Assembly (NCBI GenBank): GCA_938029215.1
Contig: CALHFG010000022.1
Span: 1 to 64,000 of the forward strand
Direction of reading: 5' to 3'
Length of the DNA: 64,000 bases
Origin: an uncultured Acidimicrobiales bacterium
GTDB taxonomy: Bacteria > Actinomycetota > Acidimicrobiia > Acidimicrobiales > SZUA-35
The notes under the pieces: model-generated
Told to the model about the DNA's origin: nothing
Databases searched by the model: none
The model's input: only the letters and a program-made list of their open reading frames with translations
Made by a program: the position numbers and the translations under genes
Shown: positions 12,021-62,680 of the stretch, one piece after another
How the letters are laid out: the number at the start of each line of letters is the position of its first letter
Numbering within the stretch: position 1 is the stretch's first letter

Positions 12021-12159
12021 GGGGCACTAGGCAAAAATCATGACGATTCTTGCGGTCTCTCCCCATTGAGCGGGTAAGCGATCTATGATCGGGGCGTTCG
12101 GTTCGGCAGAGCTGGGCAGGTCGCTGTCCAAAGTGGACTGCGAAAGGGAGAGGAATTCC

Positions 12160-13407: not shown

Positions 13408-13426
13408 GTCATCATCCTGAACGCTC

Positions 13427-13462
13427 AGAGCCCCGGCTGAAGCCGGGGCTCTTTGCGTTTTC
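13427..13462 (+). terminator. Terminator/attenuator between the binding-protein gene and the permease operon
   Basis: Perfect 11-bp stem AGAGCCCCGGC-TGAA-GCCGGGGCTCT followed by TTGCGTTTT. Confidence 0.75.
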
Positions 13463-13574
13463 GGCATCGAAGTCTGATTACAAACACGTGAATTAGACGC
13501 TGGCTCAGCAAATGGAACCACCAGTTTGGCAGTGGCGAAGTTATGACAACCGTTACACTTCCTGCGGTCGTTCA

Positions 13575-14969: not shown

Positions 14970-15958
14970 TGCTTGCTGGAATTCTCACCGACACCATTCG
15001 CGGCCTCATTGGCGATCAGGCGATCTACTTCGCACTGGCCGCCATTGGCCTCAACATTCACTTTGGCTACACCGGCCTCTTGAACTTCGGTCAGGCGGTC
15101 TTCATGGCCGCTGGCGCCTACGGGCTCTCGATGACCGTCGTTACGTTCGGAGGCTCATTCTGGGTCGGGCTTTTTGTCGGAGCGTTCGTCTTTCCCGTCA
15201 TCCTCGCACTCGTCCTCGGCATACCCACCCTGCGATTGCGGGCGGACTATCTGGCGATGGTCACAATTGCGACCGCGGAGATTTTCCGGCTCATCGCTCG
15301 TACGCCAGGCCTGGATAAATGGACCGGTTCCTCCGACGGACTTTCCGGCTTTGCTCGTGACTTCTACGACCTCAGCCCGTTCGAACCCCGGCAGCGCTAC
15401 CTGTTCAACCTGTTCCAGGGAAACCAGATGTGGGTGTTCGTGGTCGGATGGATCACCGTCGGCTTGATGCTGTTGCTTACCTATTTGCTGATCAACAGTC
15501 CGTGGGGTCGTGTCCTCAAGGCGATTCGCGAAGACGAAGACGCGGCTCGCAGCCTGGGTAAGAACGCGTTCACGTACAAAATGCAGGCGCTGATCTTGGG
15601 TGGTGTCATCGGAGCAATCGGCGGCATGATTCGAGCGATTGGCACCCAAAGTGCGCAGCCAGACAACTTCATCACCGACGTCACCTTCTTCGCCTGGGTC
15701 GCAGTGATCCTCGGAGGTGCCGGAACGATCTTCGGCCCGGTAATTGGCTCGATGATGCTCTGGTGTGTGCTTGCCTTCGCCGACACGGCGATGCGTCAGG
15801 GAGTGTCCAGCGGGGCTTTGCCCGACTGGCTCCTCACCGGAACCCAGGTTGGCCAGGTTCGCTTCATGCTCGTAGGAAGCCTTCTGATCTTCCTGGCCTG
15901 GCGCAGACCGCAAGGCATATTCGGCAACAAGGAAGAGATGGCCCTCGATGACCGCTGA
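14969..15958 (+). CDS. livM: Branched-chain amino acid ABC permease (LivM family)
   Basis: 'YFALAAIGLNIHFGYTGLLNFGQAVFMAAGAYG...LRLRADYLAMVTIATAEIFR'; start overlaps the LivH stop. Confidence 0.92.
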   Translation: MLAGILTDTIRGLIGDQAIYFALAAIGLNIHFGYTGLLNFGQAVFMAAGAYGLSMTVVTFGGSFWVGLFVGAFVFPVILALVLGIPTLRLRADYLAMVTIATAEIFRLIARTPGLDKWTGSSDGLSGFARDFYDLSPFEPRQRYLFNLFQGNQMWVFVVGWITVGLMLLLTYLLINSPWGRVLKAIREDEDAARSLGKNAFTYKMQALILGGVIGAIGGMIRAIGTQSAQPDNFITDVTFFAWVAVILGGAGTIFGPVIGSMMLWCVLAFADTAMRQGVSSGALPDWLLTGTQVGQVRFMLVGSLLIFLAWRRPQGIFGNKEEMALDDR

Positions 15959-16796
15959 TACCGATGTACTCGCCGGCGTCAGTCCCACGCCAGGCTCAAA
16001 GAAACCCGATCCCATTTTGATCGCCACTGGCGTGTCCCGGAGCTTTGGTGGTCTCAAAGCGGTCGACGTAGAACATGTGGAGATCCAACGCGGCCTGATC
16101 ACCGCGTTGATCGGCCCGAACGGTGCCGGAAAGACGACGTTCTTCAATCTCCTTACCAACTTCGACGAACCTGACTCCGGCGATCGAACGTTCGAAGGCA
16201 AGAGCCTGAACGGTGTTGCCGCCTACAAGGTGGCCAACCTTGGCATGGTTCGCACCTTCCAGCTCACCAAGGCGCTGTCAAAGATGACGGTGCTGGAAAA
16301 CATGAAGCTCGGCGCTACCGGTCAAAAGGGCGAGTCCATGTTCCGGGCGATCTTTCCGTTCCTTTGGCGCGACCAGGACAATGAGATCGAATCTGCCGCT
16401 GACTCACTTCTTGCTCGTTTCAAGATGGACCACATGCGTGAGGAGTTCGCAGGGACACTGTCGGGGGGTCAACGAAAGCTGCTCGAGATGGCTCGTGCCC
16501 TCATGGTCAAGCCCAAAATGGTGATGCTCGACGAGCCGATGGCTGGCGTGAATCCCGCCCTCAAGCAATCGCTTCTCGATCACATCAAAGGCTTGAAGGC
16601 TGACGGTATGACCGTCCTCTTCGTCGAGCACGACATGGATATGGTCCAGGAGATCAGCGACTGGGTCATCGTCATGGCCGAGGGTCGCATTATTGCCGAG
16701 GGACCGCCTAAGTCGATCTCGGAAAACGAAGCGGTCGTGAGTGCGTATCTTGGATCGCACCATGACGCCCCACTGGATTTCGGAGACGACGAATGA
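15948..16796 (+). CDS. livG: Branched-chain amino acid ABC ATPase (LivG family)
   Basis: Walker A 'GPNGAGKTT', signature 'LSGGQRKLLEMARAL', Walker B 'MVMLDEPMAGVNP'. Confidence 0.92.
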   Translation: MTADTDVLAGVSPTPGSKKPDPILIATGVSRSFGGLKAVDVEHVEIQRGLITALIGPNGAGKTTFFNLLTNFDEPDSGDRTFEGKSLNGVAAYKVANLGMVRTFQLTKALSKMTVLENMKLGATGQKGESMFRAIFPFLWRDQDNEIESAADSLLARFKMDHMREEFAGTLSGGQRKLLEMARALMVKPKMVMLDEPMAGVNPALKQSLLDHIKGLKADGMTVLFVEHDMDMVQEISDWVIVMAEGRIIAEGPPKSISENEAVVSAYLGSHHDAPLDFGDDE

Positions 16797-17545
16797 GCGA
16801 CAGCACTGCAACCCCAGAACCACTGCTTATCGCTGACAACGTCACCGGCGGCTACACCCCCGGTGTCGACATTCTCAACGGATGCACGCTGACCCTCGCC
16901 GAAGGCGAACTGGTGGGAATCATCGGCCCCAATGGTGCGGGAAAGTCCACGCTCTTGAAGAGCCTGTTCGGCCTCCTTCAAATACACACCGGGTCCATTC
17001 GCCTGCGAGGTGAGGACATCACCGGCCTGAAGGCGCACAGCCTGGTGGAAAAGGGCATTGGCTATGTTCCTCAGAACGACAATGTCTTCCCGTCGCTCAC
17101 GATCCAGGAGAATCTGGAGATGGGTATGTTCTTGGACCCCGGCCGGTTCGACGAGCGCTTTGAGGTCGTCGGTGAAATGTTCCCACGGCTTGTGGAACGC
17201 AAAGGTCAGCGGGCTGGCTCACTGTCTGGCGGCGAGCGCCAGATGCTGGCGATGGGACGAGCCCTCATGATGAACCCGTCTGTGCTCCTTCTCGATGAAC
17301 CCTCAGCCGGTCTTTCTCCGCTCCTGCAGGATGAGGTCTTCGTCAGAACCAAGAAGATCAATCAAGCGGGCGTGTCGATCGTAATGGTCGAGCAGAATGC
17401 CAGCCGCTGTCTCCAGATCTGTGATCGCGGGTATGTGCTCGATCAAGGTTCCAACGCCTATACCGGGAGCGGAAACGACTTGCTTACCGATCCCAAGGTC
17501 ATCGAGCTCTACCTCGGCACCCTGGTCAAGACCCACGCCGACTGA
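16793..17545 (+). CDS. livF: Branched-chain amino acid ABC ATPase (LivF family)
   Basis: Walker A 'GPNGAGKSTLLKSLFGL', 'LSGGERQMLAMGRALMMNPSVLLLDEPSAGLSP'; 4-nt overlap with livG. Confidence 0.92.
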   Translation: MSDSTATPEPLLIADNVTGGYTPGVDILNGCTLTLAEGELVGIIGPNGAGKSTLLKSLFGLLQIHTGSIRLRGEDITGLKAHSLVEKGIGYVPQNDNVFPSLTIQENLEMGMFLDPGRFDERFEVVGEMFPRLVERKGQRAGSLSGGERQMLAMGRALMMNPSVLLLDEPSAGLSPLLQDEVFVRTKKINQAGVSIVMVEQNASRCLQICDRGYVLDQGSNAYTGSGNDLLTDPKVIELYLGTLVKTHAD

Positions 17546-47757: not shown

Positions 47758-48375
47758 TCAGCGCCGACGGGAATTGGTCGTCCAGTGCGTTGGCCATTGG
47801 TCCTGCTTCGCAATCGGTACTCGCCACTGGGATGATGGGCCAGACATCGAACTGTGATGAGTGTTGAGGGCACTCTGCAAGGCCGCCGGGTCGAGTCGAT
47901 GGTCGTCAGCAGCCCATCGGGTAACGCCGCCACTCTCGAGGGTGTCGGCGAGAATCTCGAGCACGCCCGACACTCCGATCGACCACAGTTGGAGATCAGG
48001 ATCCGCGTAACTTCCGAAATAGGCGCGTGAACCCGGGTGTTGCTCGGTCTGCAGCTCCATCCAGATCATTCCCTTGCCGTACTTCGCGATCGGCACGAGG
48101 AGTTCTGGAAACCCCAGGCCGATCATTCCGTCTCGGCACGCCAGTGCTTCGGTTGGAGTCAAGAACCCGTCGTAGGCGGGTCGGCTGAACTGCTCTGGCG
48201 ACCACCAGGTCCAGAAGTCTCGGAGTTCGGTGGGGAGCGAGAGCGGGTCAAGGCTTGCGGTGATCAGCTTGATCTGCTGCGCGCTTTCCCGAAGTGACCG
48301 GTCCGGGCTGCAATAGATCCCGTATTCGGCGACCGCGGTTGCCACGCGCGAGGTTGCGGCCTCCAAGAGGATCAT
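47758..48375 (-). CDS. SMI1/KNR4 (SUKH)-like protein
   Basis: 'DPLSLPTELRDFWTWWSPEQFSRPAYDGFLTPTEALACRDGM'; general SUKH-like pattern, weak. Confidence 0.4.
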   Translation of the reverse strand: MILLEAATSRVATAVAEYGIYCSPDRSLRESAQQIKLITASLDPLSLPTELRDFWTWWSPEQFSRPAYDGFLTPTEALACRDGMIGLGFPELLVPIAKYGKGMIWMELQTEQHPGSRAYFGSYADPDLQLWSIGVSGVLEILADTLESGGVTRWAADDHRLDPAALQSALNTHHSSMSGPSSQWRVPIAKQDQWPTHWTTNSRRR

Positions 48376-48870: not shown

Positions 48871-49647
48871 CTAGGCTGCCGGCAGTATGAGCCCGGTCTT
48901 CCAGATTGCTCGGTCGCCGGTATGTACGGCATCGAAAGAGTTTCGACCATGGAGGACGAGGTCGTCACGCCAGGTAACACCTTCACCCCGATTCAGGCCA
49001 ACTGGCAAGATCAGTTCGCTGGGTAGACGGGTCTCGAGGAATTCATGGAAGTCTCGATTGAGCTTTTCGGCCTCGGGCGCTGGGTCGGCGCCGAGGCAAT
49101 AGAAGTTGAAGTTGAGGTCTACGGTGCCGTCGTCAGCGATCTTGACGATGGGACGGTCTTTGAAGTCGGCTGCCTTCTGATAGCGAACGTTGACCGTTTG
49201 AAGACGTTCGAGCAGTTCGGCTTCTTCGGCGGCCATGAAGTCGACAAGCGATCGCCCGGAGATGAACGTGGTCTCTCCTCCACGAGGCGCTGCAGCCTCG
49301 CAATAGAACAACATGACCCCAGCCGCCGAACTGACATAGGACTCGTCGGTGTGAAGCGGCTGTGCGTTCTTGCTATGGCGAAACGCGTCCATGTCTGGCA
49401 CATCGGACCGATAGCGGATCTCGCTCCACCTCTCGCCGGTCGGTGCCCCGCCCATCGTAAAGTCCTCGGCGATGTTTACCGGCGTGCCAATGGCCTCCAC
49501 GAGACTGTCGTAGTAGTTGCGCAAGTCCTCAGGCGTCCGAGCCGGTGAAAGCCGAACAACCTCGTGGTCTCGGATCGCTTGTCGAGCCACGATGGCATCG
49601 CTAGAGATATCACTGCCGGATAGTTCGACCGTCGTCGAGAATTTCAT
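48871..49647 (-). CDS. TauD/TfdA-family Fe(II)/2-oxoglutarate oxygenase
   Basis: 'AQPLHTDESYVSSAAGVMLFYCEAAAPRGGETTF' (HxD) and 'LVLHGRNSFDAVHTGDRAIWKTGL' (distal H and R). Confidence 0.85.
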   Translation of the reverse strand: MKFSTTVELSGSDISSDAIVARQAIRDHEVVRLSPARTPEDLRNYYDSLVEAIGTPVNIAEDFTMGGAPTGERWSEIRYRSDVPDMDAFRHSKNAQPLHTDESYVSSAAGVMLFYCEAAAPRGGETTFISGRSLVDFMAAEEAELLERLQTVNVRYQKAADFKDRPIVKIADDGTVDLNFNFYCLGADPAPEAEKLNRDFHEFLETRLPSELILPVGLNRGEGVTWRDDLVLHGRNSFDAVHTGDRAIWKTGLILPAA

Positions 49648-49750
49648 AGCCCCTCCGCATGGGTGTTTCGCCGCTCGTCTACCAATGAGGGTACCTGTTG
49701 GTGTCTTGCCGGTCGAAGGAAGAAATGCCCGGCTTACTAGGCTGTCCGGC

Positions 49751-50968
49751 TCAAGATCGTGGAACATCCTTCCACGGGATGTTCTTGTCCATACGCGGTT
49801 CACCCGGCAGACCGAGAAGTTGCTCGCCCAGAATGTTTTTCATGATCTCGGTCGTGCCACCTTCGATGCTGTTGGCCCGCACCCGAAGGAAGGCGTGGTG
49901 GATTCCTTCGCTGACACCACTGACGCTTAGGTTCTCGGGCCGTCGGAACGTGTAGTCGTAGCCGACCATGCCTGCCGCGCCCTCGAGTGACACCGCTGTG
50001 CTGAGGATTTCCTGGTTGAGCAGGGCCGACGCGAGCTTGGCGACGGACCCCTCGGGTCCGGGGTTGCCGGCTCGGCGGTTCTGCGACGCCCGCAGGTTGG
50101 TGAGACGCAGAACTTCCGAGCGGATCCACAGATCCGACACGGCGTCGCGCGCAACAGCCGTCTGTTCTTCGGTGGCAAGCGATTGCCACGCCTCCACCAG
50201 AGATGCAATGGTGCCCGACCCGCGCTTGGGAGCTCCGCCGGAACCGATTGCGGTTCGTTCGTTCATGAGCGTGGTGAGCGACGCCCGCCAGCCCTCACCG
50301 ACGTCTCCGATTCGGTGGGCATCGGGGACCCGAACGTCGGTCATATAGACCTCGTTGAATTCGGCTTCCCCGGTTATCTGGCGAAGCGGACGCACTTCTA
50401 CTCCCGGGGCTTTCATATCGAGCGCAAAGTAGGTCATTCCCTTGTGCTTTGGGGCATCGATATCGGAGCGCGTGACGAGCATTCCGAAGTCGGCAAGGTG
50501 GGCCAAGGTGTTCCACACCTTCTGGCCGTTGACGATCCACTCCTCACCGTCACGCACTGCTCTTGTTCCAAGGCCCGCGAAGTCACTTCCCGCCCCTGGC
50601 TCGCTAAAGAGCTGACACCAGCGCTCTGCGCCGGTGAACATTGGACGCAAGAATCGATCCTTTACCTCGTCTGAGCCGTGGGTGACGATGGTGGGGCCCG
50701 CGAGGTACATGAAGAACTGTGACGGCTCGGTCGCCGGTGCTCCGGCGTCGCGCACTGCCTGTTCGACCACACGTTGAAGTTGGGGGCGGACACCGAGCCC
50801 GCCGCGGCCTTCGGGAAAGTGCACCCACGCAACGCCGTAGTCGTACTGAAATCCGCGGAATTCCTCGTAGGAAAGAGAACTCGGATCGTGGTCGCGGAGA
50901 AGGTCGGCGACGGCGTCGGTTACCTTCTTCTGTTCGGCTTCAGGCGAGATCAGATCGGCGTTGGTCAC
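49751..50968 (-). CDS. Acyl-CoA dehydrogenase
   Basis: 'WCQLFSEPGAGSDFAGLGTRAVRDGEEWIVNGQKVWNTLAHLADFGMLVTR'; C-term 'EGGTTEIMKNILGEQLLGLP'. Confidence 0.93.
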   Translation of the reverse strand: MTNADLISPEAEQKKVTDAVADLLRDHDPSSLSYEEFRGFQYDYGVAWVHFPEGRGGLGVRPQLQRVVEQAVRDAGAPATEPSQFFMYLAGPTIVTHGSDEVKDRFLRPMFTGAERWCQLFSEPGAGSDFAGLGTRAVRDGEEWIVNGQKVWNTLAHLADFGMLVTRSDIDAPKHKGMTYFALDMKAPGVEVRPLRQITGEAEFNEVYMTDVRVPDAHRIGDVGEGWRASLTTLMNERTAIGSGGAPKRGSGTIASLVEAWQSLATEEQTAVARDAVSDLWIRSEVLRLTNLRASQNRRAGNPGPEGSVAKLASALLNQEILSTAVSLEGAAGMVGYDYTFRRPENLSVSGVSEGIHHAFLRVRANSIEGGTTEIMKNILGEQLLGLPGEPRMDKNIPWKDVPRS

Positions 50969-51023
50969 AAATCAATTGTTACCGCTGGCTGCGCCAGACC
51001 CAAACTGCGTCGGACCCGGGACT

Positions 51024-54000
51024 CTAGGTGCGAACCCGAGTGCCGACCAGGGCGGCTTGAACCTGTCCGGCCAATGCGGCAATCTCGTCTTCTGATTGCA
51101 GCTTGGTGCTGTAGACGAAACGAAGTTCCAGTTGATCATTGGTGATCTCGGCGATGACCGACAGCGGATGGGCTCGGATGCCATCGAGACTCACGGTTCG
51201 TCCGGATTCTTCCGGCGCCACCATGATCGTTGCGTCCGTCTCGGCGGTGATGGTTCGTCCGACATAGTTGAACAACACGTCGGCCTGGGGAAGGTCGTTC
51301 ATTGCAGACCGGACGTCCGGCTCACCATAGAACCGCAAGGCATCGAACGATGCGGCAAACTCGGACCATTCCTTTGCATCGGTGAGTTGTTCGTCGGCGG
51401 TCTTCTGAGCGAAGACGACAAAGGGTTCGTATTGCAGAAAGAACCCAACCGTCTGAGACACATCCACGCCGGCGGAATCCCGTCCGTGGCTCAACCGTTC
51501 CACAACTGCGGCTGCGGTTCCGTTTTGGTTCGCTACTGCGGTTCCAAGAGCGTTGATAATCCGCAGGTCCGGGGTGTCGGCCAGAACCTCTGCGGTTTGG
51601 GCTGTGTCCAACTGGATGCTGTAGTGGGTGGCCGCGCTATTTGCCATGGACTCACGGTCGGTGGTTCCGGGAACTGCAGGACGAACGTCCTCCCACGGAA
51701 GAGCGGTCCAACGCTCGAGCAAGGCCGCACCCGATGTTCCTGTGGCCAGGTCGGTGAGGCCGTCGATCCATGTTGGGTAGTGCTCGGTTGCGATGAGCTC
51801 CTCGGGTGATCCACCACTGAGCAGTGCGTCCAGATCGTTCATGACCGTGAAGAGCGACATCCGATCGCTCACCATGTGATGCATCAGGAAGAGCAGCCTG
51901 GTTCGACCATCGGCGATAGTGAATCGGGCCACTTTACAGGTCGGTCCGTCGAAGAGGTTGAGCGAGCGCTGGAGGTCCTCACAGGTCGACAACAGCTCAC
52001 CGTCAGCCGCCGCTCCCACCGCATCGATTGCGAACTCTTCGAGCGGAATCGAGTTGCTCGGAATGATGTTCTGGATATCGGCATCGACCACGATTAGGTT
52101 GCTACGGAGCATCGGGTGTCGCTCGCCGAGCAGTTCGAGCGTTGAACGCAGCGTTTCGTTACTCCCAAACCCGTCTTCGCGTTCCAGCAGAACCGAAATA
52201 TTGAAATGGTTCGAGTCCGCCCACCGTCGGTCGAGGAACCGGTATTGGGCCGGACCGAGGGGGAATGAGTCGTCGGGGAGTCTTGTGATGGCGGTCGCCG
52301 AATCGTTCGAGACCAATGCGCTGACCGCCGCAACCATGGCGCCGAATTCCTGGTTCGCCGTGAGGGCGTTCAGTGGGATGGAGATTCCGAATTGGGTGCT
52401 GAGCCGGGTGGCAACTCGGGCCAGTTGAAGGGAGTCGCCACCGAGAGCGCTGAAGTCATCGGTGTCGGAACACTCGATGATTCCGATCTTGTCGGTCCAC
52501 TGTTCGAGAACGGCCTGGCGCACATCGGTAGGACGGTCCTCAGATCCACTCCGATCGGCCTCAGCCTCGAGTCGTGCCTGAGCGAGGAATGGAGACTCGG
52601 CGTGGACGTCGTCGATAATTCGTTTCTGCAGGTTGGTAGGTGAGACGTGCAGGACCGGTTCGTCCGACCTAAGTGCTTGTTCGAAGACTGCGACTCCTTC
52701 CGCCGGAGTGAAGCTATTGAGCTGGTCGACAAGATCGACGTCGGTCTTATAGGTCTCACGGAAGCTGGCGGCTGCACGGACACTCATGCCCATGTCTTTC
52801 CAGTCGTCCCATGCAACGGTGATCGCCGGGACGCCATCGGCTCTCGCAGCGGCGGCGGATGCTTGTGCGTAGGTGTTGCCTGTGACGTAGCTGATCTGAC
52901 CGAATCGGTTGTGGAACAACGTGCTGGCGATCGAGCTGGAGAGCAACACAAAGTCGAGCTCGCGGGACCGAGCCAAATCGAGAACGATGGCCGAGCCGAA
53001 CGACTTGGCCGCCATCATGTCGATGCTGTCCTGACGGGTTCTGGTTGCGAGGCTTCCCCGTTGATCGGCGAGGCCAGCAACCACGATGATGCCATCCAGG
53101 TGGCCATGCACGGCTTCTGCTCGCTCAAAGGCGGAACGCATGGCGGTGTGGTCCGAGGCATTGGCCGACACGATCTCTACCGCTGCCGCCGCGGCTTCGA
53201 TTTCGGCCAGGACGTGTAGGCGGTGCGTTAGCTCGGGATTGTCGGGATCTGGCGTTGGCCGGCCCGAACGCGATGTGAGCGTGAGCTTTGCGTTGTATGC
53301 GTGTGCAAGGTGCTCAGCGATACTGAGTCCGACGCCACCGAGGCCACCGACGATGAGGTACGAGCCTCCGGGGCGGAGCTTCGATTCGGAGGCATTTGGC
53401 GTCTCTTCGATCGAAACCCAGGGTGACCACACCCGACCACCACGAAGCCCCATCACTGCTGGTTCGACCATGGTGCGACCATCGATCGAGCTGAGCGAGC
53501 TGAGCTCGGCCACGAGACCGTCGATGTCGACCGAGGAGCTTGCCACGTCGAGGAGCCGGGTAGCGATCGAGGTGAATTCGATAGGAATTACCTTCGCCGA
53601 TCCGACCAAAGCAGCAGCACCGGGTCGAACCTTCGGTGTCGGTTCAAGGTCGAATCCATCGGCGGTCAGTAGATCAAGTTGTACCGGTTCTGATCCCATG
53701 ATCGAGCCGGTGAGTCGTGCTAGTAGTTCGGCACACAGGACACCGCGAGCGAGTTCGAATTCGACGGTCGCTGAAACGGTGGCTTGGGATGTCTCTTGGT
53801 TCAACATCCAGCCGTGCACGATCTGGCGGGGCCGAATTCGACCGATGAGATCGGCCAACCCGGACTCAATTGCCTGGGCATCGAGTGGATCGGTTGAGAA
53901 ATGGCCAGCCGATACTTCCGAAAAGCCCTCACCATCGGGAGTCACGATCGTGACCGGACCGAGCTTGCTCAGTTTCTGGCTCAGTTCGGATCCGATATCA

Positions 54001-56867
54001 CCTGCTGGCGACAGGAAAAGGATGGTTCGATCGGTGTCGGTATCGAGGTTGCGCACTCGGCGGCCGCGAGTAAAGGTGTCGGCATAGAGCCACTGATCCA
54101 GGTCGTTGCGATGTTCCGGTGGCGCAGCTTGAACGGCGTCGGGCCGGGGCATCCCCAGGATGTGGCGGTAGTCGGGCGCCCACACGTCGTTCCGTTCGAA
54201 CGGGTAGGACGGCAGCGTCACCATGGTGCCGCGGCCGTGGGATCCTGAGTTGGTTGCGGCGACGAAAGTCTCCCAGTCGATCGTGGTGCCCGCAGCCCAC
54301 AAGGCACCAACCGCAGTCAGTGCGAAGTCCCAATCGTTCGCCTCCTGTCGAGCGCCGCGGAAAAGCTGGATAGTCGCAGTCTTTGCGGGATCGATGGCGT
54401 TGTTCTGTTGCGTGAGGGCAACGAGCGGGCGGCCTGGGCCCACCTCGACGAACGCTCCGCTGTTCGTCGTCTCTGCGACGGTCGCGATGCAAGCTCGGAA
54501 GAGAACTGGCCGCCGAATCTGGGATGCCCAGAACGCGGGATCGACCGCCTCGTCGGGGGTGAGCCACGTGCCGGTGACGTTGCTGACCATTGGCAGCGAA
54601 GGTTCGTTCAGGGCAACGGTTCGGACGACGCTCTCAAACTCGGTGGCCGCCGCATCCATCATTGCCGAGTGGAATGCGTGACTGGTGCGCAGTATCGAAC
54701 AGCGGATGTCTCGCTGGTCCAGCTGTGCTTTGAACGCTTCGATAGACGGGGTCGGTCCAGAGAACGCAATGATGTCTTTGGCGTTGTCGGCGGCGAGCTC
54801 AACGTCTGCGGGGGGAGTCGGGAGCTGGGTGAGGTTAGCGGACACGCTCAACATCGAGCCCGGTTCCATACTCTGCATGAGCTGACCACGACGGGCGACC
54901 AACAATGCAGCATCCTCGACACTCATCACGCCAGCATGAACGGCTGCGGCGTACTCGCCGATGCTGTGGCCGATAACGACATCGGCTTGCACACCCAGTG
55001 CCGCGAGCATCCGCGTGGCGGCATATTCGGTGGCAAACAGCGCAGGCTGGGTGAAGGCGGTCTGACGCAGGGTGTGCGTCGCCTCCTCGGCATCGTCGGC
55101 GTGAGCGAACACCAGAGTTCGCAGATCGCGCCCGATCAGAGGTTCAAAAAGTTCGGCGCAGTAGTCGAAGGCCCGTGCGTAGTCCGCGGAGGACTCATAC
55201 AGGTCCTTGCCCATCTGCACGTACTGAGCTCCCTGGCCCGAGAACAGGAACGTTGTCAGCGGTGCATCGGCACCTGCTTGACGAACGATCGGTGTTGCAG
55301 AGCGCAAGGCGTCGGCTGGAGCGCGGTCGGACGTGACGGCGATCGCAGTGCGGTAGGGGAGCGCGGCGCGGCGGTCGCGGAGTGTGTAGGCCACGTTGCC
55401 GAGATCCAGCATGGGGTTAGCCTCGAAGGCCTCGGCCAGTTGCGTGACTCGGCGGACCGCGGCGTCGGCGGTTCGGGCCGAGACGACCAGCAGCTCGGTC
55501 GATCGCCCGGTTGGGGGCTCGGCCGGTAGAGGAGGTGCTTGCTCCAGCACGACGTGGGCATTGGTGCCACCGATGCCAAAAGCGGAAACGCCAGCCCGGC
55601 GAGGAACGCCAGGGTCGGTGGTCCAGGCAGTGGTGGAATCGTTGACGAAGAAGGGCGTCTTCTCTATCTCGATCTCGGGATTCGGCTCGTTGTAGTGAAT
55701 GCTGGCCGGGATCACGCCGTTCTTGAGCGCGAGGACCGTTTTGATGAACCCGGTAATGCCAGCGGCGGCGTCGAGGTGTCCCAGGTTGGACTTCACCGAC
55801 CCGATCGCGCAGAACTGTTTGCGGTCGGTTGCGATCTCGAATGCTTTGGTGAGCCCAGCGATCTCAATTGGGTCACCCACCTTGGTGCCGGTGCCGTGGG
55901 CCTCGATGTAGCTGATTGTGTCGGCCGAAACATCGCCGATCTCCTGAGCGATCTCGATGGCTTCTGACTGGCCGTTGATCGAGGGGGCCGTATAGCCAGC
56001 TTTGTCGCTGCCGTCGTTGTTTATCGACGACCCGCGAACAACGGCAAGGATGTTGTCGCCCTCTGCGATGGCGTCGGGTAGACGTTTGAGCACGACGACA
56101 CCACAGCCCTGGCCCAGGGTGGTTCCGCCGGCCTCGGAATCGAAGGCGCGGCACTCGCCGGTCGGCGAAAGAATCATGCCGTCTTGATAGAAGTAGCCAA
56201 CTCCCTGGCGGAAGTTCACTGTGACGCCGCCTGCCAACGCCATCGTGCATTCTCGGTTTAACAGGCTCTGCGCGGCCATGTGTACCGCGACCAGCGATGT
56301 GGAACACGCGGTCTGGAGCGTGAGGGCGGGACCGGTGAGGTTGAGTCGGTGTGAGAGCCGGGTGGCGAGAAAGTCTTTGTCCGAGCCGATGAGGCGGTCG
56401 AACGCGCTCAACGGGTCGGTTTGGTCCACTGATCCCTGCAACACCGAGTAGTCGTTCGGGTTAGATCCCGCAAACACACCGATGGGACGGTTCTCGGTGA
56501 ATGGATCGACCCCGGCGTTCTCCAACGCCGAGTACGCCTCTTCGAGAAAAATGCGACTCTGAGGGTCCATAACTTCAGCCTCTTTGGGCGTAAACCCAAA
56601 GAACCGGTAGTCAAAGGATGACTGGAATGGCAGGCGGGTACCTCGCCGAATGAAGTTCGGTGCGGAATAGGCCTCGCGTGGGATGCCCAGCTCATCTAGC
56701 TCGTCGTCGGTAAAGGAGTGTAGGCAATCTCGTTCATCCACGAGGTTCTGCCAGAGATCGTCGACAGTGGCGGCCTCGGGGAAGCGGCCGGCAACGCCAA
56801 TGACGGCAACGTAGTCGTTGTCCTCGAGGTCATAGTCTGGTGCCCAGTTGTTAGGGGACGGGTTCAT
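51024..56867 (-). CDS. Type I PKS module KS-AT-KR-ACP with terminal condensation/epimerization-like domain
   Basis: KS 'TACSTSLVAVH' and 'EAHGTGTKVGDP'; AT 'GHSIGEYAAA' with 'HAFH'; KR 'GGLGGVGLSIAEHLA', 'LLSSSIAS...GQISYVTGNTYAQA'; ACP 'ALGGDSLQLARVA'; terminal 'LMHHMVSDRMSL', 'DVSQTVGFFLQ', 'DVLFNYVGRT'. ATG 56867 chosen over the upstream ORF start. Confidence 0.93.
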   Translation of the reverse strand: MNPSPNNWAPDYDLEDNDYVAVIGVAGRFPEAATVDDLWQNLVDERDCLHSFTDDELDELGIPREAYSAPNFIRRGTRLPFQSSFDYRFFGFTPKEAEVMDPQSRIFLEEAYSALENAGVDPFTENRPIGVFAGSNPNDYSVLQGSVDQTDPLSAFDRLIGSDKDFLATRLSHRLNLTGPALTLQTACSTSLVAVHMAAQSLLNRECTMALAGGVTVNFRQGVGYFYQDGMILSPTGECRAFDSEAGGTTLGQGCGVVVLKRLPDAIAEGDNILAVVRGSSINNDGSDKAGYTAPSINGQSEAIEIAQEIGDVSADTISYIEAHGTGTKVGDPIEIAGLTKAFEIATDRKQFCAIGSVKSNLGHLDAAAGITGFIKTVLALKNGVIPASIHYNEPNPEIEIEKTPFFVNDSTTAWTTDPGVPRRAGVSAFGIGGTNAHVVLEQAPPLPAEPPTGRSTELLVVSARTADAAVRRVTQLAEAFEANPMLDLGNVAYTLRDRRAALPYRTAIAVTSDRAPADALRSATPIVRQAGADAPLTTFLFSGQGAQYVQMGKDLYESSADYARAFDYCAELFEPLIGRDLRTLVFAHADDAEEATHTLRQTAFTQPALFATEYAATRMLAALGVQADVVIGHSIGEYAAAVHAGVMSVEDAALLVARRGQLMQSMEPGSMLSVSANLTQLPTPPADVELAADNAKDIIAFSGPTPSIEAFKAQLDQRDIRCSILRTSHAFHSAMMDAAATEFESVVRTVALNEPSLPMVSNVTGTWLTPDEAVDPAFWASQIRRPVLFRACIATVAETTNSGAFVEVGPGRPLVALTQQNNAIDPAKTATIQLFRGARQEANDWDFALTAVGALWAAGTTIDWETFVAATNSGSHGRGTMVTLPSYPFERNDVWAPDYRHILGMPRPDAVQAAPPEHRNDLDQWLYADTFTRGRRVRNLDTDTDRTILFLSPAGDIGSELSQKLSKLGPVTIVTPDGEGFSEVSAGHFSTDPLDAQAIESGLADLIGRIRPRQIVHGWMLNQETSQATVSATVEFELARGVLCAELLARLTGSIMGSEPVQLDLLTADGFDLEPTPKVRPGAAALVGSAKVIPIEFTSIATRLLDVASSSVDIDGLVAELSSLSSIDGRTMVEPAVMGLRGGRVWSPWVSIEETPNASESKLRPGGSYLIVGGLGGVGLSIAEHLAHAYNAKLTLTSRSGRPTPDPDNPELTHRLHVLAEIEAAAAAVEIVSANASDHTAMRSAFERAEAVHGHLDGIIVVAGLADQRGSLATRTRQDSIDMMAAKSFGSAIVLDLARSRELDFVLLSSSIASTLFHNRFGQISYVTGNTYAQASAAAARADGVPAITVAWDDWKDMGMSVRAAASFRETYKTDVDLVDQLNSFTPAEGVAVFEQALRSDEPVLHVSPTNLQKRIIDDVHAESPFLAQARLEAEADRSGSEDRPTDVRQAVLEQWTDKIGIIECSDTDDFSALGGDSLQLARVATRLSTQFGISIPLNALTANQEFGAMVAAVSALVSNDSATAITRLPDDSFPLGPAQYRFLDRRWADSNHFNISVLLEREDGFGSNETLRSTLELLGERHPMLRSNLIVVDADIQNIIPSNSIPLEEFAIDAVGAAADGELLSTCEDLQRSLNLFDGPTCKVARFTIADGRTRLLFLMHHMVSDRMSLFTVMNDLDALLSGGSPEELIATEHYPTWIDGLTDLATGTSGAALLERWTALPWEDVRPAVPGTTDRESMANSAATHYSIQLDTAQTAEVLADTPDLRIINALGTAVANQNGTAAAVVERLSHGRDSAGVDVSQTVGFFLQYEPFVVFAQKTADEQLTDAKEWSEFAASFDALRFYGEPDVRSAMNDLPQADVLFNYVGRTITAETDATIMVAPEESGRTVSLDGIRAHPLSVIAEITNDQLELRFVYSTKLQSEDEIAALAGQVQAALVGTRVRT

Positions 56868-56877
56868 TCTGTTTCCT

Positions 56878-59800
56878 CTACCCGCGACCACGACGTCGAC
56901 GTGATTGCTTTGCCGCCTTTTGGGCTTCGATCGTTTCCGCAGTACTCGACCGGCGCCTGGTGCCCGTGCCCGAAAGTAGTTCATCCTGAGCAGCGATTGT
57001 TGGATTGCCGAGCAAGATCGAGAGCTTCAGTGTGGTTCCGAACTCCTCGTTGATCAGCGCGAGTAGTCGGACGGCAAGGATGCTGTCACCGCCGACGTCG
57101 AAGAATGCGTCGTCGATCGAGATCTCGTCGTGCTGAACGATTCCGGCCCAGAGTTCCAGCAGGCGTTTTTGCGTTTGGTTCGTAGCTGGCACGAGAGCCG
57201 AGCGCGAGCGACGGGCTTCTGGCTTTGGAAGTCGCTTGCGGTCTACCTTCCCGCTGGTGTTGAGGGGAAACTCTGGCAGCACGACCCAATCAGCCGGGAC
57301 CATGTACGCCGTCAGCCGCTCACCGCTTACCTCGGTCAGATACTCCGTGTCGAGTGGGGTGTCGGGATTCGCGGGCGTCACGTACGCCACGATGCGGGCG
57401 TCGCCCGCCTTGCTCGCCTCGGTGGTGACGACACACTGACCCACCTCGGCAATGTCGCTGATTACCGATTCGATCTCGCCGAGTTCGATTCGGAGGCCGC
57501 GGATTTTGACCTGGTGATCGAGTCGCCCGAGGTACTCAACGTTGCCGTCGGGCATGAAACGAGCGAGGTCGCCGGTCTTGTAGAGGCGCCCAGCGCTGTA
57601 GGGGTCCGGCACAAACTGGCGTTCTGTAAGTTCTGCGTTGTTTCGGTACCCACGGGCGACCTGAACGCCGCCAATGTGCAGCTCGCCCGGCACGCCGATG
57701 GGCAGTGGGTTCAGCTGTCGATCGAGGATGTGGATCTGGGTGTTGGCAATCGTCTTGCCGATGGGAACGGTCTGCAGCTGTGACTCAGGATCACACTGCC
57801 ACCATGTGACATCGATCGCCGCTTCGGTAGGCCCGTACAGATTGTGCAGTTCGCATTCAGGAAGGGTGGCGAAGAACCGATCTTGAAGGTCTCGAGTCAG
57901 TGCCTCACCCGAACAGATAACTCGCTTCAGCGTTGTGCAGGACGAAGCCTTTGGGTCGGAGAGGAAGATTTGAAGCATCGACGGAACGAAGTGAATCGTT
58001 GTGACGCCTGCGTCGTTGATGGCCGGAATGAGTTCGCCGGGGTCCATATGGGCCCCGGGAGCGGCGATCACTGTGTGAGCGCCTACGAGGGTCGGCCAGA
58101 ACAGCTCCCAAACCGAGACGTCGAAGCTGAAAGGGGTCTTCTGAAGCACGACATCGTCCGGTCCAATTTGGAACGCGTCTTGCATCCAGAGGAGCCGGTT
58201 GACGATTCCGGCGTGCTCGTTCATGGCGCCCTTCGGGCGGCCGGTCGAACCTGAGGTGTACAGCGTGTAGGCCAGATCGGTGGGACCGGCGTGTCGATTG
58301 GGAGCCGTGGTCGATTCAGAACTCCAAATAGGGTTTTGGCTGTCGAGCACGATCGTGGTGTTCGGGGCGAAGCGTTTCGAGAGATGCTCTTGGCAGAGAA
58401 CGATCGATGCTTCGGAGTTATCGACCATGTAGTCGAGGCGATCGGATGGATGATCTGGATCGAGCGGTACGTAGGCGCCACCGGCCTTGTGGATGGCGTG
58501 AATTGCCATCAACATTTCTAGGGACCGTTCCATACAGACGCCGACGACCTGATCTGGCTTGACGCCCCGTCGTTGCAGCAGATGCCCCAGTTGATTGGTG
58601 GCTGCGTCGAATTCTGCGTACGTCATCGTTGACGAGCCGAAGGAGAACGCGGGCAGTTGGGGTGTCTCGGCAGCTTGGGCTTCAAAGAGGTCGGGCAGTG
58701 TGACCGACAGGTCATAGCCAACCGCCGAGTCATTCCACTGCCGGAGTTGCTGTTGTTCCGAAGCGGTGAGATAGCCGAGTTCGACAGCAAGAATTGGGGA
58801 ATCGGCGTCGTGGTCAAGCGCGTCGGCAAAGCCTGCCAGGATGGCCTGATATTCGTCTAGCAGCTTGCCTGCTTGTTCTACCGAGGCCCGAGCCGTTGAG
58901 TACTCAAGCCGCAAAACAAACTCGGGCTCGTTGTAGGCCAACACGGTGAAATCGAAGTTGGTTTGACCGGTGTAGCTGAACGTGCGTCCGGTCGCTCGTG
59001 TGCCGAGGCGCTTGGCCATCCTGGTGTTGAGGGTTGCTTCGTCGAACATGACGATGCTGTCGAACAGCGGCGTCCGCCCGAGGGGGCTCACCTGGTTTAT
59101 CTGCGGAAGCGGCGTCGTCTCGACGTCACGCAACCGGAGCTGTTCGGTCTTGACAGTTTTCAATAGGTCGCCGACCGACATCGCGGAAGTGATATCGACT
59201 CGGAAGGGAATGGTGTTGATCAGGAGACCGATCATCTCGGCGCTGTCGCTGACCGCGTGTCGGCAAGCCCTGGTCGTTCCGGTGACGATGCTCGAACTCT
59301 GGCTGTAGTGGTGCAGGAGGAGCATCCACGCGGCCTGCACGACGTTGTTCACGCTGACATCAAAGTGTTCAGCGGTTCTACGGATTCGGTCGGATGGTCC
59401 ACGATCGAGAATTCGTTCGAGGTGGGCGACGGGTCGTTCGTCGGCGTCGGGAGTTCTGGCGGGAGTCGTGATTGACGTGGGGTTCTCTAAGCCGCTCAGG
59501 TACTTGCGCCAAAAGGCGGTTCGATATGACGCTGTTTCCGCGTCGGTGGCCGTCACGTGGTCGACGTAGCGCTGGAATGGTGTTCCGATTTCCTGCGCTT
59601 GGGAAATGCCATCAAACTGGTCGAACACCGCATCTAGCACCAGCGGGAATGACCGGCCGTCGAGCAGCGAATGGTGGAACGACCACAAAATCCAGGTGTC
59701 TGGACCGTCGGTGGCGATCGTGAGCCGTTGCAGCGGTGCTTCGGTGAGATCGAAGTCTGTGTATCGATCGGTTTCGGCAATGCGCCGTCGCATTTGGTCG

Positions 59801-60081
59801 GTCGGCGCTGAGACCATTGAAGGGACGATGGGGGCGTCAGCCGAGACGGCTTGCATCGTTGATCCATCGGGACCGGCTACCAGAGCCGTACGCAGGATGT
59901 CGTTGTGTGCAGTTACCGCGTTGAATGCTTCTACGAGTCGAGCGTGATCGGCGCCCGCTTCGAGCGTGATCTCGATCTGCTCGACGTCGACGCCGGTGCC
60001 GGGGTGCGCGTTGGCATGAAAAGCCATGCCGGCTTGCAGTGCTGTTCCGTTACGCAACTCTGGTGAGAGTTGTACCGCCAT
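56878..60081 (-). CDS. NRPS module C-A-PCP, A domain predicted Ser-specific
   Basis: C 'WSFHHSLLDGRSF'; A 'YTLYTSGSTGRPKGAMNEH', 'FDVSVWELFWP', 'NLYGPTEAAIDVTWWQC', 'NTSGKVDRKRLP'; PCP 'FFDVGGDSILAVRL'. Confidence 0.95.
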   Translation of the reverse strand: MAVQLSPELRNGTALQAGMAFHANAHPGTGVDVEQIEITLEAGADHARLVEAFNAVTAHNDILRTALVAGPDGSTMQAVSADAPIVPSMVSAPTDQMRRRIAETDRYTDFDLTEAPLQRLTIATDGPDTWILWSFHHSLLDGRSFPLVLDAVFDQFDGISQAQEIGTPFQRYVDHVTATDAETASYRTAFWRKYLSGLENPTSITTPARTPDADERPVAHLERILDRGPSDRIRRTAEHFDVSVNNVVQAAWMLLLHHYSQSSSIVTGTTRACRHAVSDSAEMIGLLINTIPFRVDITSAMSVGDLLKTVKTEQLRLRDVETTPLPQINQVSPLGRTPLFDSIVMFDEATLNTRMAKRLGTRATGRTFSYTGQTNFDFTVLAYNEPEFVLRLEYSTARASVEQAGKLLDEYQAILAGFADALDHDADSPILAVELGYLTASEQQQLRQWNDSAVGYDLSVTLPDLFEAQAAETPQLPAFSFGSSTMTYAEFDAATNQLGHLLQRRGVKPDQVVGVCMERSLEMLMAIHAIHKAGGAYVPLDPDHPSDRLDYMVDNSEASIVLCQEHLSKRFAPNTTIVLDSQNPIWSSESTTAPNRHAGPTDLAYTLYTSGSTGRPKGAMNEHAGIVNRLLWMQDAFQIGPDDVVLQKTPFSFDVSVWELFWPTLVGAHTVIAAPGAHMDPGELIPAINDAGVTTIHFVPSMLQIFLSDPKASSCTTLKRVICSGEALTRDLQDRFFATLPECELHNLYGPTEAAIDVTWWQCDPESQLQTVPIGKTIANTQIHILDRQLNPLPIGVPGELHIGGVQVARGYRNNAELTERQFVPDPYSAGRLYKTGDLARFMPDGNVEYLGRLDHQVKIRGLRIELGEIESVISDIAEVGQCVVTTEASKAGDARIVAYVTPANPDTPLDTEYLTEVSGERLTAYMVPADWVVLPEFPLNTSGKVDRKRLPKPEARRSRSALVPATNQTQKRLLELWAGIVQHDEISIDDAFFDVGGDSILAVRLLALINEEFGTTLKLSILLGNPTIAAQDELLSGTGTRRRSSTAETIEAQKAAKQSRRRRGRG

Positions 60082-60101
60082 TGAAGTTCCGCCTTCGTTG
60101 A

Positions 60102-60133
60102 CCAGTTAGTGAGTGAAGTCTTACAGTAACTGG
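60102..60133. promoter_or_regulatory. Inverted repeat in NRPS 5' leader
   Basis: CCAGTTAGTG-AGTGAAGTCTTA-CAGTAACTGG, 9/10 pairing, about 20 nt upstream of the NRPS start on the minus strand. Confidence 0.4.
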
Positions 60134-60167
60134 CTGGCACTTTTGGTGGCAGTGTAGATCGCCTTAA

Positions 60168-61154
60168 CTAGTAGGTCCATCGGCCCATCTGGGTCCAACC
60201 TGTTGCCGTTTTGCGGTCTCGCACGAAGTTTCCCGACCAGCTCCAGGCCTCTCCACGGCGACGCAGCTTCCGGATGATCCAGCCCGCCAGGTTCACCGGC
60301 CGGCGGAGGGACGGGCGCCAGTTTTGTGCGACGTTGGATAGCTCGGCAGCAAAACCGGGGCTGTCGGCATCGTTCGAGGGGCGTAGGGACCACTGGCCGG
60401 AGGTCGCAACGCCGAGGGGCATCTCGATAGCAAAGGCCCCAGATCCGGACATCGGCCCGAACTCTGGGCCACCGGTAACTTCGAACCAGCCGTGACGGTT
60501 CTCGACCATCGGCGAACCGACCGGAGCTCCTGCACAGTTGATGGCCGCCAGGGTGAGACCCGTACAGACCCGAGTGCTGGAGAACTTCTTGAGATCTATC
60601 GGCACGCCTGGTAGTCGGAGAAGTGCCGGTGTCAGAGCGGTGTTGTCGATGGTGACCGAGATATCGGTTGAGGCTGGCAGAAACCGGAACCCTGTCATGT
60701 AGAGCAGGCGAAGGTTAACCGGCGCCACCCCAGGAGGGGTCGGGGTGAACATCCCCGCGGCGGGCTTTTCACCCTCGGACCGAACCGAGGCTTCAATCCT
60801 GCGACCTTTCAGGTCGTGAAATGCTGCTGCCAGTTGTACCGAGGTGTCGGTTACTTCGTAGGTGATGAATTCAAACGTCGTGGGCACGAGCTCGGCCAAC
60901 TCGGCCAGGGAGTACGCCGGGTCTGTCGCAAACCATTGCGCGGTGATCGGAAGATGCGGCTCGTAGTACAGCCAGACTCGTTTCGACCAATCTTGAACCT
61001 TGGCCGTGTATCCCGTAAGTGGTCCGTCGGCGGTGGTGAATTCGAGAAGCTGAAACTCGATTGCAAAGAGTTCAGAGCCCGACACGAACGGGATCTCGAT
61101 GAAACTTTGCAGCTCGCCAATGGTGAGTGAAATCGGTACCGCAGTGTCGGCCAT
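60168..61154 (-). CDS. Unknown protein (328 aa) within NRPS-PKS operon
   Basis: Intact ORF between sugar transferase and NRPS genes; no family recognised by eye. Confidence 0.7.
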   Translation of the reverse strand: MADTAVPISLTIGELQSFIEIPFVSGSELFAIEFQLLEFTTADGPLTGYTAKVQDWSKRVWLYYEPHLPITAQWFATDPAYSLAELAELVPTTFEFITYEVTDTSVQLAAAFHDLKGRRIEASVRSEGEKPAAGMFTPTPPGVAPVNLRLLYMTGFRFLPASTDISVTIDNTALTPALLRLPGVPIDLKKFSSTRVCTGLTLAAINCAGAPVGSPMVENRHGWFEVTGGPEFGPMSGSGAFAIEMPLGVATSGQWSLRPSNDADSPGFAAELSNVAQNWRPSLRRPVNLAGWIIRKLRRRGEAWSWSGNFVRDRKTATGWTQMGRWTY

Positions 61155-61157
61155 GTC

Positions 61158-61838
61158 CTACTCTTGCGCCTCGGTCTGTGTGCCGTCTTTACCTGCGTAC
61201 ACCGTGGTCAGCTTGGCGCCGTCGGCTCCTCGACCGCCAAACACAGCACCGACGGTGTCCCAGAGAATCTTCAGATCTAGCAGGAGAGACCGGCGGCGGA
61301 TGTACTCGAGGTCGAGCTCAAACTTTTCGTCCCAGGAAAGCGAATTTCGGCCCTGGGTTTGGCAAAGGCCGGTGATGCCCGGAACGACCTGGTGGCGCTG
61401 TGCGTGCTCGGGTGTATAGCGGTCGAGGTAGATGGCGTAGAACGGCCGCGGACCAACCAAGCTCATCTCACCGCGCAGAACGTTGACCAGTCCCGGTAGC
61501 TCGTCGATGCTGAACCGTCGCATCGTGTCGCCCCACCAATGGGTGCGATCGGCGTCCGGGAGCAGAGTGCCGTTGGAGTCACGCTCGTTCGTCATGGTCC
61601 GAAATTTGATGATCTCGAAGGTCTCTCCACCATGAGCGCCGCGCTTCTGGGTGAAGAAGATGCCGGGTCCCATTGTCAGTCGGGTGAGAACGGCCGCGAC
61701 AGCGAAGACCGGGGAGAACACGATGAGGGCGCCTGCTGCCCCGACGAGATCCATTATCCGTTTCCACGCCGGTGTCGGAAGCTTTGGGACTACAACGTTG
61801 CCCTGTCCGTCACGGTGGACCTTTGGCTCGGTTCCCAT
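61158..61838 (-). CDS. Bacterial sugar transferase (polyprenyl-phosphate sugar-1-phosphate transferase)
   Basis: 'KRIMDLVGAAGALIVFSPVFAVAAVLTRL', 'IFFTQKRGAHGGETFEIIKFRTM', 'RFSIDELPGLVNVLRGEMSLVGPRPF', 'PGITGLCQTQGRNSLSWDEKFELDLEYI'. Confidence 0.93.
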   Translation of the reverse strand: MGTEPKVHRDGQGNVVVPKLPTPAWKRIMDLVGAAGALIVFSPVFAVAAVLTRLTMGPGIFFTQKRGAHGGETFEIIKFRTMTNERDSNGTLLPDADRTHWWGDTMRRFSIDELPGLVNVLRGEMSLVGPRPFYAIYLDRYTPEHAQRHQVVPGITGLCQTQGRNSLSWDEKFELDLEYIRRRSLLLDLKILWDTVGAVFGGRGADGAKLTTVYAGKDGTQTEAQE

Positions 61839-62680
61839 CAGCTCAGTTCCTCTTGGTTCGTGGACCGGGCATGTTCGAACTCGGTCCAGAATCGTTGTAC
61901 GTCGGGTTGGGTACGTCCCGCAGCATCTACTGCGCTTTGCACATGCTCAATACTATTCGCGCTCAAAACGATGGTCTTCACTGTGGGGTGAAGTAGCGGC
62001 CATTCGAGTGCCCGAGCGACTTCGTCGGCGGAGGTTGTCATGGCGCCGGCCCCAAGCGGTCGAATCGCATAGAACGAAACGACGTCATCGAGAAACTGGG
62101 CGTTGTCGGTTTCGGCAAGATTCAGATAGTCGCACAGCGACGTTGTTGGCAGGGCCTCAAGAGCAGGCCGAGCGAAGGACGGGTGATAGGTGAACACCGA
62201 AACGTCGGCGATATCCCCACGTTTGATGAGCTCGGAGAAACACGCGTCGATAACCTCGGCTTGGTCTGCGAGCAACTCGAGCCGTCGATCGACATTCTGC
62301 GCGTCAGGGGTTCTGAACAGCCACTGAACCGACGCCAGGCGATCGGTTCCCAGTGTTTGCAGTTCTTCGTGAACCAGCTGGTTGATAGCGGCGGGGTCGA
62401 ACTGTTCGCCGTCGAACGACGGCGAACTGAGCTTGACGATGTGTTCGAACGTTGCGGACCGTTCGCAGCGCTTCAACGCTTGGAGGTAGAGCTCGTGGGC
62501 GTCGTACTCCCGTGATGAATGGTGCGTGGTAATACCTCGATCGTGCAATTCGTTGAGGTGAGCTGCCGCCTCACCCACCGTTCCCCGAAGCCGCATCGTG
62601 CCAAACGCGATCTGGCTAACGTCGGCATCGCTGTCGGGACGAATCCGACGGCGAGCTACCGGTGTGCTGAGGAGTTGCAT
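61838..62680 (-). CDS. Aldo/keto reductase-like protein (degenerate tetrad)
   Basis: AKR-like fold pattern 'IAFGTMRLRGTVGEAAAHLNELHDRGITTHHSSREYDAHE', 'VKLSSP', 'YAIRPLGAGAMT'; ATGA overlap with the sugar transferase start. Confidence 0.75.
   Translation of the reverse strand: MQLLSTPVARRRIRPDSDADVSQIAFGTMRLRGTVGEAAAHLNELHDRGITTHHSSREYDAHELYLQALKRCERSATFEHIVKLSSPSFDGEQFDPAAINQLVHEELQTLGTDRLASVQWLFRTPDAQNVDRRLELLADQAEVIDACFSELIKRGDIADVSVFTYHPSFARPALEALPTTSLCDYLNLAETDNAQFLDDVVSFYAIRPLGAGAMTTSADEVARALEWPLLHPTVKTIVLSANSIEHVQSAVDAAGRTQPDVQRFWTEFEHARSTNQEELS

Follow-up and report, generated by a model that had tools for sequence, protein, structure and literature searches.

We analyzed a window of 64,000 nt from an uncultured Acidimicrobiales bacterium (contig CALHFG010000022.1), in which a nonribosomal peptide synthetase (NRPS) and a polyketide synthase (PKS) are encoded beside a phosphoglycosyl transferase (PGT) and a 328-aa protein of an unnamed family (U328). 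The product of the assembly line is probably an uncommon chemical substituent of a sugar polymer on the cell surface. We give about an even chance to the reading of the locus as a glycan-decoration pathway, in which the NRPS-PKS acyl group would be moved to a sugar by the terminal domain of the PKS, with the chemistry predicted. Tentatively, and with somewhat less than even confidence, we further propose an integral glycan role for the NRPS-PKS, with the terminal domain as a new release class acylating nucleotide- or lipid-linked amino sugars, and NRPS-PKS-made side groups on the polysaccharides of at least two phyla.

To find relatives of the system, the end of the PKS, and not U328, served as the query against about 85,000 genomes of bacteria and archaea. 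Six loci were returned. One, an Acidimicrobiaceae PKS (L040), lacks the epimerization (E)-like end, lies in an ordinary-looking NRPS cluster and was set aside; the other five are from G001, G013, G021, G419 and G418. The set of six genomes formed by these and the window genome (G000) consists mostly of metagenome assemblies and includes an uncultured Granulosicoccus of the Gammaproteobacteria (G418) and an Actinomycetes metagenome-assembled genome (G419), while the matches in G021 are on small contigs of one fragmented assembly. Where the pair is readable, identity to the window proteins is 43-73% for the NRPS and 39-71% for the PKS; outside the genus the two are 39-46% identical over their full length. 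U328 is found in all six genomes with this NRPS-PKS type (25-59% identical, the G021 copy being on another small contig), and each also has a homologous PGT that shares a contig with the NRPS or with U328; this is the opposite of the routine absence of both genes from homologous pairs that an earlier note on this DNA had named as the finding that would speak against it. The pairing of PGT and NRPS-PKS raised there is real and conserved, and the link is not incidental. An aldo-keto reductase (AKR)-like protein and a TauD-type dioxygenase are found in four of the six.

Polysaccharide genes surround or adjoin the system in four genomes of the set (G013, G419, Granulosicoccus and, in fragments, G021), a gene association that is directly observed. 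The NRPS, PKS, GT4 glycosyltransferase, PGT, DUF218, U328, Wzx-like, Wzy_C and Wzz/kinase genes of G013 are consecutive. G419 has a Polysacc_synt_2/DegT open reading frame (ORF), the NRPS, the PKS, a GT4, an epimerase, U328 and a flippase; its PGT, 55% identical, lies immediately upstream. The Granulosicoccus locus holds U328, the NRPS, the PKS, DUF218, a porin, a Poly_export protein, a Wzc-type kinase, a glycosyltransferase, an epimerase and Wzy_C. The contig also has, some 25 kb from U328, the order aminotransferase-AKR-TauD-PGT-hexapeptide transferase-Gfo/Idh-PseB-like dehydratase, with the AKR-TauD-PGT trio recurring inside this polysaccharide locus.

Such an NRPS-PKS could instead make an ordinary small molecule, a lipopeptide or tetramate-like compound, with the PGT and polysaccharide genes as chance neighbors in gene-rich variable loci. 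NRPS-type genes are common in the bacterial family of the window genome, the flanks in the window and in G001 are housekeeping and not polysaccharide genes, and a PKS with 35% full-length identity lies in an apparently ordinary multi-NRPS stretch of Nostoc. However, the Nostoc PKS end retains the Glu of E domains and falls outside the E-like clade, and U328, the PGT and the polysaccharide context stay with the pair in two phyla, at identities of about 40%, with AKR, TauD and PGT recurring together. We consider this explanation improbable.

In a sample of 397 genomes from the order, U328 was detected in four, one of them weakly. The E-like domain scored 577-597 bits in exactly the three genomes with a strong U328 and at best 185 bits elsewhere, a gap in the U328 and E-like scores that is partly by construction because the profiles were built from the members retrieved, which inflates those members' own scores; the agreement in presence and absence depends less on profile construction than the scores do. 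Among 369 genomes of the Granulosicoccus class, and among 95 relatives of G418 and 99 of G419, the strong U328 matches were the known ones only. The construction of the profiles is one of several points that weigh against the glycan reading. The system was found in six genomes only, of which most are metagenome assemblies. Beside the cluster in the window and in G001 there is no Wzx, Wzy or glycosyltransferase gene, and the retrieved parts of G013 and G419 yielded neither AKR nor TauD. The PGT also weighs less than U328 and the context, since a PGT is expected in any polysaccharide locus. The genes with the next E-like scores in the order (C25 of G012 and C78 of G089) were examined and rejected, being NRPS genes with neither U328 nor polysaccharide genes beside them. 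A single-sequence U328 scan had no match in the genome contig collection, nor did one of the plasmids.

The PKS is encoded at 51024..56867 on the minus strand and reads KS-AT-KR-ACP followed by the terminal domain (51024-52274), which Pfam labels Condensation. This domain is nearest to the epimerization domains of PvdL (104 bits) and TycA (92 bits). A tree places it among E domains (100/100), where the six copies are a clade of their own (100/99). In the alignment every one of the six copies has Leu or Ile at the catalytic Glu position of EGHGR, and HHxxSDR in place of HHxxxDG, so that HHxxxD is kept and Gly becomes Arg; Janthinobacterium E domains in the same alignment retain both the Glu and HHxxxDG. 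Judged by sequence, then, the terminal domain is descended from epimerization domains and has lost the catalytic Glu. Because that residue is replaced in every copy, we did not file the domain, called E/C-like in the earlier note, as an epimerase: a normal epimerase was rejected as its identity, and a working one is not supported. Like the NRPS epimerization domains of PvdL, TycA and GrsA, to which it is homologous, it has HHxxxD; unlike them it has Leu/Ile for Glu and DR for DG, follows a PKS ACP and belongs to a separate clade. A transferase role would suit it, we infer. Neither a thioesterase (TE) nor a reductase (R) release domain was recognized in the NRPS-PKS pair or the scanned window proteins, and the E-derived domain is terminal instead.

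The NRPS (C-A-PCP; 56878..60081, minus strand) ends 10 nt before the PKS, and across the pairs the end of the NRPS gene overlaps the PKS start or lies within 10-20 nt of it. Active-site motifs are present in both proteins (HHSLLDG, GGDS, TACSTSL, EAHGTGT, GHSIG, HAFH, GGLGGVG and LGGDSL), so their domain content and the state of their active sites can be read directly. The A-domain code is DVWHISLIDK, as in the window, or DVWHISLVDK in all five complete pairs, which we take to be of the serine type. This agrees with the Ser specificity suggested before; the acyl-seryl product suggested with it is unsupported as regards its acyl starter. The HAFH motif of the AT is presumably of the malonyl type. 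The NRPSs have basic C-terminal tails (net +2 to +7), compatible with a hand-over from NRPS to PKS.

In the pathway we propose, the NRPS would load Ser, which the C domain may N-acylate. The PKS would add one malonyl unit and its KR would reduce the beta-keto group, to yield a thioester of the 4-amino-3,5-dihydroxypentanoyl type. The terminal domain would then release the chain onto a nucleotide sugar, at an amine or a hydroxyl; a bacillosamine-like 4-amino sugar is the most likely acceptor. The PglC-like PGT would put the acylated sugar-1-phosphate on undecaprenyl phosphate. TauD and the AKR-like protein may tailor the acyl group or the sugar, and U328 could be an accessory factor. The lipid-linked unit would be extended, flipped and polymerized by Wzx/Wzy machinery, which is encoded next door in relatives and would be supplied from elsewhere in the window genome, where Wzy-family genes are located. 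We infer the product, the acceptor, the order of tailoring and the role of U328.

The window PGT (226 aa; 61158..61838, minus strand) is monotopic and matches PF02397 at 185 bits, with the dyad D112/E113 and P43 of the re-entrant helix invariant. Its best match in the PDB is PglC (8e37, 163.6 bits), the Campylobacter di-N-acetylbacillosamine-1-phosphate transferase, which has the same catalytic dyad and is the nearest solved structure; by this similarity a UDP-diNAcBac-type sugar would be a candidate substrate of the window enzyme. PglC serves protein N-glycosylation and is not known to be linked to an NRPS-PKS. The AKR-like protein (280 aa; 61838..62680, minus strand) matches PF00248 at 23.4 bits, just below the cut-off. 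Its AlphaFold2 model (pLDDT 85) supports an AKR fold, with AKR11C1 (1ynp) as the best Foldseek match (E=2e-12), and homologs are at matching loci in G001, G021 and Granulosicoccus. Y59 and K83 are kept; set by eye against the family motif, the Asp position reads His and the His position another residue, and the protein seems to be without the Asp and His of the usual tetrad. The TauD-type Fe/2-oxoglutarate dioxygenase (PF02668; 48871..49647, minus strand) has intact iron ligands, H101-x-D103 and H235, that are invariant in four sequences.

It is unlikely, in our estimate, that the acyl chain is built on or moved to an undecaprenyl-linked or membrane-bound sugar and stays there as a glycolipid, not reaching a polymer. 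The terminal domain belongs to the condensation superfamily, as do the PapA acyltransferases, no polymerase gene is adjacent in the window or G001, and there is no TE. Set against this, the loci of the pair in G013, Granulosicoccus and G419 include Wzy, Wzz or Wzx-type genes. In the mycobacterial PKS/PapA systems a PKS chain is likewise moved to a sugar by a condensation-superfamily acyltransferase, but PapA is a separate protein, and these systems have no Ser module, no undecaprenyl PGT and a trehalose-type acceptor.

A product with an amine, hydroxyls and a carboxyl could also bridge residues, in which case the output of the NRPS-PKS would not be a side group but a sugar-like residue or a non-sugar connection within the polymer backbone. 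A hydroxyglutaric acid linkage has been reported in a Flexibacter O-antigen (PMC3210612). We recognized no gene for activating the far end of such a residue, and N-acyl side groups are common in described glycans (PMC10609480). We consider this explanation highly improbable.

Decoration by an acyl side group has its closest documented logic in the O-antigen of Flavobacterium psychrophilum. The prediction there is that UDP-bacillosamine receives a 3,5-dihydroxyhexanoyl group on its 4-amine through an ACP, two ketoacyl synthases, a reductase and an acyltransferase of the PglD type (PMC6519341). Acyl-aminoacyl substituents on amino sugars are known too, for example N-(3-hydroxybutyryl)-alanyl on Qui4N (PMC10609480; also PMC3210612). 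The wfpC-G R-group pathway of F. psychrophilum resembles the window system in its predicted carrier-bound beta-hydroxy acyl group for a bacillosamine-type 4-amine, its O-antigen locus and its Wzx/Wzy pathway. It differs in using discrete enzymes like those of fatty acid synthesis (FAS), an ACP and a PglD-type acyltransferase, whereas the window system is modular, an NRPS-PKS that would use Ser and that ends in an E-derived domain; no PglD-type acyltransferase was found among the window cluster genes with Pfam or NCBIfam. By this analogy the window system would be a modular counterpart.

Surface glycans often bear odd N-acyl groups, for which discrete FAS-like enzymes were proposed in the F. 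psychrophilum case. If our reading is right, a modular NRPS-PKS wired to a sugar-initiating enzyme joins two biosynthetic worlds that are usually annotated apart. It would also explain a class of orphan NRPS-PKS clusters and provide a release domain able to attach assembly-line products to sugars. As a search rule we offer U328 together with a PKS ending in HHxxSDR...(L/I)xHGR. A literature search for NRPS or PKS genes inside polysaccharide loci found no similar system, weak evidence of novelty as most subscription journals were outside its coverage.

A more distantly related pair is found on a plasmid of Deinococcus actinosclerus (CP029777), where a PKS with an ACP and a C/E-like end (Glu to Met) adjoins an NRPS-like gene in a polysaccharide locus with glycosyltransferases and two sugar transferases. 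It differs from the window system in an end domain of about 26% identity, an extra DH and a luciferase-type insert in the A domain, and no U328 was found. Its locus (L106:7967-30507) encodes an A-PCP protein with the luciferase-like insert, a KS-AT-KR-DH-ACP-C/E-like PKS, a FemAB-type GNAT and a formyltransferase. The window genome has a second NRPS locus, unrelated to the window cluster (L099:4500-19683, contig C24), with an NRPS of 1303 aa, an acyl-CoA dehydrogenase (ACAD)-like protein, an AMP-ligase of 537 aa, a short-chain dehydrogenase/reductase (SDR), a Wzx-like protein, a GT2 and Wzy_C; AMP-ligase, SDR, GT2 and Wzy_C are similarly arranged in G001 (C29, L102). NRPS-type enzymes may be commoner in glycan loci than has been noticed.

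U328 (60168..61154, minus strand) is the marker of the system. The window protein has no match in NCBIfam, nor in Pfam even at E=5. Its AlphaFold2 model, of modest confidence (pLDDT 73), is mostly beta with a C-terminal helix and had no confident structural match in PDB and viral fold searches. A lipocalin/Diels-Alderase-like hint (CghA, PloI4) was weak and not significant and was dropped. The more distant matches, in G335 and G758, are not accompanied by an NRPS-PKS over the stretches read. The family extends beyond this system, since distant relatives are free-standing, with no NRPS-PKS adjoining (L034:1024-2133, 369 aa; L078:18019-19164, 381 aa). Long DUF218 proteins adjoin U328 in both genomes of one genus (L028:10645-12624, 659 aa; L029:864-2750, 628 aa), and no Pfam family covers roughly the last 400 residues of either.

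The limits of the system were drawn from genomes of the same genus. G001 has the whole block with matching flanks, at 58-85% identity for the cluster proteins, 83% for FbiC and 88% for transaldolase. U328 was not found in three further genomes (G002, G003 and G004), whose site is without the cluster. The order in G002 is an uninterrupted tkt-tal-ACAD-SUKH-HxlR-fbiC and in G003 tal-SUKH-fbiC; in G004 ACAD is followed by fbiC, and tal lies upstream within that contig. The window ACAD (49751..50968, minus strand) is about 79% identical to those of G002 and G004, and we take it to be an old resident of the site because these cluster-free genomes keep ACAD near fbiC. The earlier note had counted it in the cluster, but same-genus genomes without the cluster hold it anyway, and the cluster-free site rules it out as a pathway enzyme. 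The interval from tal to ACAD holds AKR-PGT-U328-NRPS-PKS, and that from ACAD to a SUKH-like gene holds TauD. TauD is missing from the cluster-free sites; we count it in the system because it adjoins the PGT in G021 (L029) and sits between AKR and PGT in Granulosicoccus (L073). An opposite-strand antiporter-like ORF, absent in the window, parts ACAD from TauD in G001 (L026:4728-6005). The SUKH-like protein of the window (47758-48375, 205 aa), recognized by eye, has no Pfam match. Its gene is conserved beside fbiC in G000, G001, G002 and G003, two of which are without the cluster.

The window is part of a 130-kb contig within a draft genome of 3.94 Mb. All seven minus-strand ORFs described earlier are present in the claimed order and at the given coordinates, six of them with Pfam support, U328 being the exception; probable starts are 56867 for the PKS and 49647 for TauD. 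Gaps of 3, 86, 10, 55 and about 103 nt are likewise as described, but the AKR/PGT junction, given as ATGA, is a 1-nt overlap in TGATG. The window had been said to hold no TE, R domain, phosphopantetheinyl transferase (PPTase) or transporter. The first three were indeed not found among the window proteins scanned, but there is a branched-chain amino-acid-type ABC transporter at 12085-17545, more than 30 kb from the cluster and unrelated. The only PF01648 gene found genome-wide, of the PPTase family, is on contig C87 (14066-14299, L122), which also holds a large NRPS. Scans for promoters and terminators did no better than shuffles. The edge ORF at 2-11851 encodes 3949 aa with dozens of SdrD_B/CarboxypepD_reg/SpaA-type repeats and is probably a giant surface protein.

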